Part shown: one piece after another, positions 29,021 to 31,986 of the stretch | How positions within the stretch are numbered: the first letter of the stretch is position 1 | Layout: every line of letters starts with the position of its first letter | NCBI RefSeq assembly: GCF_006352065.1 | Contig: NZ_CP040915.1 | Span: 3,782,001 to 3,846,000 of the forward strand | Length of the DNA stretch: 64,000 bases | Origin: Georgenia yuyongxinii | GTDB lineage: Bacteria; Actinomycetota; Actinomycetes; Actinomycetales; Actinomycetaceae | Reading direction: 5' to 3' | The notes under the pieces: model-generated | Database searches by the model: none | Told to the model about the DNA's origin: nothing | The model's input: the letters and a program-made list of their open reading frames with translations, nothing else | Translations under genes and position numbers: made by a program

Positions 29021-29326
29021 ATGGGGTTCGACGACCTGGCCCGGAAGGCCAAGGACGCCTTCCAGAGTGAGAAGGTGCAGCAGGCGTTGCGCTCGGAGAA
29101 GGCGGAGACGGTCAGCGACACCGTGCTTGAGAAGGCCGCCGGGATGGCCGACAAGGCCACGGGCGGCAAGTACGAGCAGCAGATCGCCGGTGCCCGGAAC
29201 ATGGCCGACACCAAGATCGGCACCGACAACCCCAGCAGCCTTCCAGACCCCCGACGACGAGAGCGGGCAGGGGGGGACCCCCGCCCGCCCGTGACAGCCG
29301 GTACGGGTCAGGAGGGCCGCCGCTAG
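29021..29326 (+). CDS. Small Rv0909/MT0933-like antitoxin-family protein
   Basis: 101 residues, no membrane segment. The N-terminal half (GFDDLARKAKDAFQSEKVQQAL, then VSDTVLEKAAGMADKATGGKYEQQIA) matches the short hydrophilic 'MT0933-like antitoxin' family. The C-terminal third is Pro/Arg-rich and differs from its paralogue at 30894. A strong ribosome site (gggaggaagcc) precedes the ATG. No toxin gene is adjacent; its stop overlaps the convergent amidase stop by 4 bp (the CTAG at 29323-29326). The antitoxin label comes from the family name only; a stress-hydrophilin role is equally possible. Confidence 0.65.
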   Translation: MGFDDLARKAKDAFQSEKVQQALRSEKAETVSDTVLEKAAGMADKATGGKYEQQIAGARNMADTKIGTDNPSSLPDPRRRERAGGDPRPPVTAGTGQEGRR

Positions 29327-30893: not shown

Positions 30894-31076
30894 ATGAGCA
30901 TCGGCGACCTGGGCGACAAGGCCAAGGACCTCGCGGGCAGCGAGAAGGCCGAAGGGATCAGCGACTCCGGCATCGAAAAGGCCAAGGACGCGGCGAGCGA
31001 GAAAACCGGCGGCAAGTTCGACGAGCAGCTGGACAAGGGCGGCGACGCCGCCGACCAGCGACTCGGCAACGAGTAG
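30894..31076 (+). CDS. Short Rv0909/MT0933-like antitoxin-family protein (paralogue)
   Basis: 60 residues, very hydrophilic: SIGDLGDKAKDLAGSEKAEG, then EKAKDAASEKTGGKFDEQLDKGGDAADQRLG. It is a shorter paralogue of the protein at 29021, sharing the K-A-K-D start, the SEKAE stretch and the TGGK(F/Y) segment. No toxin partner is visible. It stands 118 bp before two repeat proteins on the same strand and may be transcribed with them. Confidence 0.65.
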   Translation: MSIGDLGDKAKDLAGSEKAEGISDSGIEKAKDAASEKTGGKFDEQLDKGGDAADQRLGNE

Positions 31077-31194: not shown

Positions 31195-31518
31195 ATGACC
31201 AGGAAGCACGACCCGGACGCCGAGGAGCCCCGAGCCGCACCGCCCGGGCGCGGCCGTTACGACGAGGGCCAGGCCTCGGACGAGGATCTGCAGGCCGAGC
31301 TCGGCCGGCACCACGGCCGGTACGACGACGGCGAGCGGACCGACACCACGCATCCCTCCACCGACGAGCTGCTCCGCGGCCGGTACGACGAGGGCCAGGC
31401 CACGGACGCGGACCTCGCGGCCGGAGTCCGGCGCCCGCACGGCCGGTACGACGAGGGGACGCGAGCCCCCGACGCCGACTCCGACGACGCCGGCGACGAG
31501 TCCCGGTCCGACTTCTGA
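31195..31518 (+). CDS. Acidic protein of four 21-residue GRYDEG repeats (unrecognised family)
   Basis: 107 residues, strongly acidic and hydrophilic, with no Cys, Trp, signal peptide or membrane segment. The hexapeptide GRY-D-(E/D)-G begins at residues 20, 41, 62 and 83, an exact 21-residue period; in the first and third repeats it is followed by QA(S/T)D. The start is the ATG at 31195 after cggagagaacgcc; an open frame back to 31087 lacks the repeat. I know no named domain for it. A sister protein follows 22 bp later. It is probably disordered or a repeat solenoid; a role in stress protection or ion binding would be a guess. Confidence 0.75.
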   Translation: MTRKHDPDAEEPRAAPPGRGRYDEGQASDEDLQAELGRHHGRYDDGERTDTTHPSTDELLRGRYDEGQATDADLAAGVRRPHGRYDEGTRAPDADSDDAGDESRSDF

Positions 31519-31540
31519 ACCCCACTGGACGAGGTGCCCC

Positions 31541-31837
31541 ATGAGTGAGATCCAGCCGCAGGACCCTGCCCAGCACGTACCCGGCGCGCCGCCTGAGCCG
31601 CACGGCCGCTACGACGAGGGCGAGGTGGCCGAGGAACGCCTCGTCGAGGACGAGCACACCCGCGGCCGCTACGACGAGGGCGAGGTCGCCGAGGAGGTGA
31701 TCGCCAAGGAGGAAGGCGTCCACGGTCGGTTCGACGAGGGCCAGGCGGCGGACGCCACCCTCGACGCCGAGGAGGGCATCGAGGGCAGCTTCGACGAGGG
31801 CCAGGCCAGCGACGACACCCCCTCGCCCACCCCCTGA
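31541..31837 (+). CDS. Acidic protein of four 20-residue GRYDEG repeats (sister of the preceding gene)
   Basis: 98 residues, rich in Glu/Asp. GR(Y/F)DEG (last copy GSFDEG) starts at residues 22, 42, 62 and 82, an exact 20-residue period. The following positions read EVAEE or QA-(A/S)-D, and each repeat carries an acidic stretch before the next Gly. The first two repeats share about 23 identical bases at a 60-bp interval, so duplication is recent there. ATG at 31541 behind ggacgaggtgcccc. No known domain. A strong terminator ends the unit 19 bp after the stop. Confidence 0.75.
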   Translation: MSEIQPQDPAQHVPGAPPEPHGRYDEGEVAEERLVEDEHTRGRYDEGEVAEEVIAKEEGVHGRFDEGQAADATLDAEEGIEGSFDEGQASDDTPSPTP

Positions 31838-31855
31838 CCCGAGGATCCGTCCAGG

Positions 31856-31883
31856 AGCGACCGGCCCAGACGGGCCGGTCGCT
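31856..31883 (+). terminator. Terminator of the GRYDEG unit
   Basis: Perfect 12-bp hairpin AGCGACCGGCCC-agac-GGGCCGGTCGCT followed by CCTT, 18 bp after the stop of the second repeat protein. Confidence 0.88.
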
Positions 31884-31986
31884 CCTTGCTGTTCGCCGCG
31901 GTGCCCGCCGCTCGTCGCCAGGCGTGCGGGCCGCGATGTGTGGCCGACCGTGTCCGGATCGTGACCGGGTGTGGTGGGCGAACCTG

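Follow-up and report, generated by a model that had tools for sequence, protein, structure and literature searches.

The two adjacent repeat genes of the window (the whole stretch of 64,000 nucleotides of Georgenia yuyongxinii that was analysed) belong to a real, genus-restricted family of repeat proteins, for which the searched libraries gave no convincing match. The motif set contains 11 proteins of one genus (four of type A, six of type B, and one of type C) with 44 motifs, and four motifs were found in every protein. The motif and the number of motifs are the conserved features; the exact period is not. The family evolves fast, and the motif is kept better than the rest of the protein. The explanation we favour, although with less than even confidence, is a genus-restricted and probably young family of acidic disordered proteins, which would carry four aromatic-acidic docking motifs on a chain with hydrophilin-like chemistry.

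The preliminary description of this DNA had reported two adjacent reading frames, A and B, each with four GRYDEG repeats at exact but differing periods. The reading frames, their adjacency, and the residue positions were all correct (Table 1): the motifs start at residues 20, 41, 62, and 83 in A and at residues 22, 42, 62, and 82 in B, which gives spacings of 21/21/21 and 20/20/20 in this genome. The two genes are separated by 22 nt. Four motifs per protein were confirmed, but only five of the eight are literally GRYDEG, the exceptions being GRYDDG, GRFDEG, and GSFDEG. A small antitoxin-family protein had been placed upstream, and this protein, called T here, does match PF14013; its gene is presumed to be the first of a T-A-B unit. 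The strong terminator described behind the pair was also recovered as a perfect GC hairpin. A terminator consensus scan was silent at this place because it requires a T run. When the 100 nt after B were shuffled, none of 2000 shuffles yielded a perfect stem of at least 12.

Table 1. Positions of the T, A, and B genes, their motifs, and the hairpin in the window.
Feature	Position	Strand	Remarks
T, PF14013 (MT0933-like antitoxin family) protein	30894..31076	+	60 aa; Pfam E 1.2e-13; orthologues by sequence
Protein A	31195..31518	+	107 aa; acidic; four R[YF]D[ED]G motifs as two 42-residue units
A motif 1	31252..31269	+	GRYDEG, next residue Q
A motif 2	31315..31332	+	GRYDDG, then ER
A motif 3	31378..31395	+	GRYDEG, next residue Q
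A motif 4	31441..31458	+	GRYDEG
Protein B	31541..31837	+	98 aa; acidic; net charge -23; four motifs, period 20
B motif 1	31604..31621	+	GRYDEG
B motif 2	31664..31681	+	GRYDEG
B motif 3	31724..31741	+	GRFDEG
B motif 4	31784..31801	+	GSFDEG
Hairpin 3' of B	31853..31886	.	perfect 15-bp GC hairpin; presumed terminator; no clear T run

Both genes have a coding-like pattern of GC content by codon position (0.81/0.53/0.94 in A and 0.83/0.44/0.93 in B), and their ribosome-binding sites look plausible by eye. The repeats are also apparent from self-similarity. B has 31 identities at a lag of 20, a value reached by none of 2000 shuffles. A has its best lag at 42 (23 identities, reached by one of 2000 shuffles), because units 1 and 3, in which Gln follows the motif, resemble each other (67% of amino acids) and units 2 and 4 much less (33%). 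Some spacers of the two proteins have moderate helix propensity on a crude scale.

The same four blocks are visible in the alignments, beside the motif calls made with the search expression. This expression fixes Asp at position 4 and Gly at position 6, and the presence of Asp at position 4 in 44 of 44 motifs is thus imposed by it. Gly occupies position 1 in 37 motifs and Arg position 2 in 43. Position 3 is Phe in 29 motifs and Tyr in 15; position 5 is an acid in 42 (38 Glu and four Asp), with one Gln and one Lys. The motif period drifts from 18 to 25 residues across the family. The spacing in A is 21/21/21 in three proteins and 21/19/21 in that of genome G004; in B it is 20/20/20 in three proteins, 19/19/19 in two, and 18/19/19 in one; in C it is 21/25/21. 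Regular spacing had earlier been taken to imply selection on spacing, and such values do not support this claim. Homologues with similar periods do exist in related genomes, but the exact period is not shared. Since the period drifts while the count stays at four, the motif number looks more constrained than the exact spacing. All 11 proteins are related and come from a single genus, so they do not amount to eleven independent observations of the number four.

Several further stretches might be decayed extra units: GRTDF/GRSDF (or SRSDF) at the C-terminus of A, a VGFGEG stretch in B of genomes G001 and G006, and the N-terminal extension of B in G004. The last, in the B-A locus at L027:1300-2125 (+), is long and rich in Arg, Asp, and Ala. 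The B proteins of G006 and G001 (encoded at L028:1444-1833 (-) and L029:1444-1851 (-)) have an N-terminal extension rich in His and Asp, possibly metal-binding; the other four B proteins do not have it. R[ST]DF forms the C-terminus of all four A proteins. PDZ domains bind C-termini of the type [ST]-x-hydrophobic, and the end of A could fit this type; alternatively, it could be a truncated repeat.

The acidic residues of the motif raise the possibility of metal or cation binding, in which the spaced Asp-Glu pairs would buffer a divalent cation and the His-rich N-terminus of B would aid in two species. The acids at positions 4 (44 of 44, as fixed by the expression) and 5 (42 of 44), together with the His-rich N-termini in G001 and G006, are in line with this reading. 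However, four of the B proteins have no His-rich part, and the conserved Arg and aromatic residue would be left unexplained. No Ca2+-binding family was found among the Pfam matches of A and B at E up to 10 or of the 11 members at E up to 1, and a match to Zip (zinc transporter) at 0.55 is far too weak to count. Metal binding is considered improbable. Tyrosine modification as the purpose of the motif was rejected, as position 3 is Phe in 29 of the 44 motifs. The type VII secretion signal is YxxxD/E; this candidate was also rejected, since most of the motifs have Phe by eye. The interchange of Phe and Tyr suggests that the aromatic ring, rather than a modified tyrosine hydroxyl, would be recognised. 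Interchangeable Phe and Tyr beside a near-invariant Arg, an Asp, and a Gly would be expected if the motif were a short docking or sticker site.

Comparison with the known families returned no convincing match. A and B matched nothing in Pfam and NCBIfam at E up to 10; A, B, and C gave only E 0.24 or weaker against PHROGs; and the joint profile found nothing in the PDB at E up to 1. When all 11 members were compared with Pfam at E up to 1, five families appeared. The best of them was Sas10 (8.3e-4, one member), a match which probably reflects acidic composition bias. A literature search by the motif string GRYDEG gave no match, and a wider motif string gave only papers unrelated by title. These results agree with the earlier suggestion of a possibly undescribed repeat family. 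A profile comparison with hhalign shows that A and B are related (99%).

The family was found in six of the nine genomes of the genus. Both A and B are present in G000 (the window's genome), G002, G004, and G008; G001 and G006 have B only; and G003, G005, and G007, which represent three species, have no member. The joint profile A4 was searched at E 1e-3 against 213 genomes (36 genera) of the taxonomic family, and no member was found in the other 204 genomes. A further family-level search of 151 genomes with profile A2 gave no relative outside the genus. Beyond the genus, only the window's own genome matched among 297 genomes of the order (A1), 394 of the class (A4), and 296 of the phylum (A4); these samples overlap, and 12-29 candidates per genome were scored where first-look candidates were abundant. 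No relatives were found in plasmids (queries P0001 and P0002), phages (query P0002), and viral contigs (A4). In genome contigs searched with exact short peptides (query P0002), one of 177 stretches was confirmed, with 28 residues, in Candidatus Electrothrix. This match was taken as chance, because no local reading frame has at least two motif-like hits.

The motif pattern had at least one match in 298 of the 394 class genomes, as expected of short motifs. The window's genome has 12 matches, and the next highest count among the matches listed is 7 (G606 and G694). One other motif pair at comparable spacing among the matches listed, in G661, was rejected, as it sits inside a WD40-type protein by eye. 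Adjacent tandem motif copies were seen in two class members, with steps of 15 and 18 nt (G703:C413:816-862 and G645:C221:136136-136170); these are probably unrelated low-complexity genes.

The third member, C, is a paralogue of 100 aa at a distant locus of the same chromosome (G000:C1:2860580-2860882), with the motifs GRFDQG, GRYDDG, GRYDEG, and GRYDDG. By eye, an aconitase gene lies on one side and a reductase gene on the other; it has no T-like (PF14013) neighbour. The lag test for C alone was not significant (221 of 2000 shuffles), and C was placed in the family because of its profile match, which is 7.0e-18 with profile A1 (C not included) and 3.0e-27 with A4 (C included). The units of C alternate as in A; C is therefore read as an A-type paralogue.

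The dN/dS values of three close pairs are 0.24 (A, G008/G002), 0.27 (B, G008/G002), and 0.21 (B, G006/G001), and those of six distant pairs are 0.57-0.80. In eight orthologue pairs, the motif-core codons have 15 amino-acid-changing and 25 silent differences in 160 codons, and all other codons (spacers and ends) have 274 and 82 in 704; the pairs share sequences and the motif codons were picked by expression in one row per pair, so these counts describe the pattern but do not test it. Some proteins contain near-identical units over 54 nt from the motif start, such as units 1 and 3 of A in G002 (96%) and G004 (93%), units 2 and 3 of B in G004 (96%), and units 1 and 2 of B in G008 (96%). We infer from these units that the arrays may have been partly renewed with the count kept at four. 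The spacer identity of neighbouring B units is 55% within proteins versus 41% for the same index between species. For A units two apart (1 and 3), the values are 45% and 43%; these averages barely differ, and renewal is therefore clear only in some proteins.

A family that is genus-restricted and fast-evolving, with partly homogenised repeats, might also be a neutral repeat expansion, i.e. a low-complexity reading frame kept by chance. However, the low dN/dS of the three close pairs (0.21-0.27), the silent changes within the conserved motifs, the frames open in six genomes, and the constant motif number all argue against chance retention. This explanation is disfavoured, and we regard it as quite improbable.

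The genomic position of the family was compared among the nine genomes of the genus. A T orthologue lies downstream of a divergent amidase start in all nine; the Pfam scan was made with the window's copy, and the other T proteins are orthologues by sequence. The distance between amidase and T is about 0.1-0.3 kb in seven genomes and about 2.1 kb in G003 and G005, which have other sequence in between (L066 and L065). Beyond the amidase gene, a second PF14013-like protein was recognised by eye at 29021-29326 (+) (LARKAKDAFQSEK...TGGKYEQQI), and G002, G007, and G008 contain copies that resemble it. A/B sit directly after T in all six genomes that carry them, with the order B then A in G004, and T occurs without A/B in the other three genomes. 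The link between A/B and the antitoxin-family gene is positional only. A binding-protein gene (SBP) lies further downstream in eight genomes; none was found in G006 at E 1e-40, where T and B are followed by apparent CoA-transferase genes by eye (L051), and the G006 locus is therefore rearranged.

Behind the last repeat gene, each of the six carriers has a perfect GC hairpin of 14-18 bp. T and SBP are about 200 nt apart in G003 and G005, and a perfect hairpin lies 13-20 nt behind T. G007 has an EamA-type transporter gene (by eye) between T and SBP, and the search behind T gave no perfect stem. G000, G001, G002, and G006 have no perfect stem of at least 8 bp in the 330 nt after T; G008 has an extra hairpin at a distance of 7 nt behind T, and G004 has one at 77 nt. 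Judging from the hairpin right after T in G003 and G005, A/B might have been inserted ahead of the terminator of T. The amidase tree (nine rows, unrooted) splits the three family-free genomes from the six carriers at 100/99, and in the SBP tree (eight rows, unrooted) a branch at 97/95 again has these three genomes on one side. With a single separating branch and 204 empty genomes in the taxonomic family, the simplest history is a single gain within the genus. If the gain is older, loss of the family beyond that amidase-tree branch is possible.

The shared position suggests another explanation, in which A/B would be the partner of T in a toxin-antitoxin-like unit. A/B follow T in six of six carriers, four of which (G000, G001, G002, and G006) have no perfect stem of at least 8 bp within 330 nt after T, and the hairpin 13-20 nt after T in G003 and G005 is where it would be if A/B had entered before the terminator of T. 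On the other hand, T occurs without A/B in three of nine genomes and C without T, and the partner described for Rv0909 is a START-like protein (PMC2781298); such a partnership is therefore unlikely, and we rate it as very improbable. Reading the ORF lists by eye showed no START/polyketide-cyclase toxin gene in the interval from T to the genes that follow.

T also contains a GGK[YF]DE-like stretch, and an origin of the repeat from this stretch was considered and rejected. The hhalign probability was 2% (E 0.023) with eight T proteins (those of G001 and G006 are the same). The repeat-profile score was reached by 642 to 1378 of 3000 T shuffles, for seven T proteins from the nine genomes. Moreover, the score of the window's T was reached by 85 of 580 ordinary 60-aa segments and that of G005 by 21 of 580, where the segments include repeated copies of the same proteins.

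The charge-hydropathy line has all 11 proteins on its disordered side, and by this measure A, B, and C are probably disordered. They might therefore be read as hydrophilin/LEA-like protectants, bulk hydrated chains that protect proteins or hold water in drying or osmotic stress, with the motif merely a repeat seed without a specific partner. A Gly content above 6% and a GRAVY below -1 are two of the three hydrophilin criteria quoted in PMC4190154, a paper which itself deems the criteria insufficient as a definition. The Gly content is 8.9-15.0% in the family, thus above 6% in all 11 proteins, and GRAVY is below -1 in 10 of 11 (-1.64 for A and -1.16 for B of the window; the exception is B of G002 at -0.93). 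The neighbouring PF14013 protein is likewise small and charged by eye. A stress or hydration role would be compatible with this hydrophilin-like chemistry. However, composition would suffice for a bulk role, yet the hexapeptide is kept far better than the rest and its number is constant. In addition, no sigma-B- or sigma-H-like promoter was found in the nine loci with two simple patterns, which is a weak test. The protectant reading is possible but rather doubtful.

In the docking explanation that we favour, each of these small, mostly acidic proteins would present four G-R-[YF]-D-[ED]-G motifs with about 12-19 faster-changing residues between them. The four Arg-aromatic motifs may be equivalent docking or "sticker" sites, which would bind either a single cellular partner or one another, and the hydrophilic spacers would keep the motifs soluble and apart. 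With four such sites along one soluble chain, avidity or bridging might result, and A, B, and C would function as multivalent binders. A more specific version holds that the family was born in the genus by a single gain between the PF14013 gene and its terminator, with exactly four copies of a new docking motif, R[YF]DEG, an array that is renewed, and selection on the stoichiometry of this newly arisen four-site scaffold; in all its parts together, this version is unlikely. If true, it would be a placed case of bacterial orphan-gene birth, in which one genus holds empty sites (three species), occupied sites (six species), and a dispersed paralogue. The motif would be a directly testable functional unit of a new protein, and motif number, not spacing, could be a selected trait of a disordered bacterial protein.

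Several known systems share features with this family. The T protein of the PF14013 (Rv0909) type adjoins A/B, is short and charged, and has the GGK[YF]DE-like stretch resembling the A/B motif; however, A/B/C have no profile similarity to it (hhalign probability 2%), and PF14013 was absent among the Pfam matches of the 11 members (E up to 1) and of A and B (E up to 10). The MORN and RHS/YD repeats are about 20 residues long, with Gly-aromatic motifs and further conserved hydrophobic and Gly positions. A/B/C share the period near 20 and the Gly/aromatic core, whereas they lack these further positions, and neither repeat appeared when the 11 members were compared with Pfam (E up to 1). With the hydrophilins and LEA-like proteins, A/B/C share high Gly content, strong hydrophilicity, small size, and probable disorder. 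Hydrophilins are also defined by a mean hydrophilicity above 1 and by induction under osmotic or water stress. A/B/C differ from them in the fixed R[YF]DEG motif, whose number is constant; the likeness is one of physico-chemical class rather than of demonstrated homology, and one of the 11 proteins misses the GRAVY limit. Like the orphan (taxonomically restricted) families of bacteria, for example in Bacillus, A/B/C are homologous copies confined to one taxon. They differ from these families in their regular four-motif architecture, in a strongly conserved motif, and in being assigned to one branch of the amidase tree.
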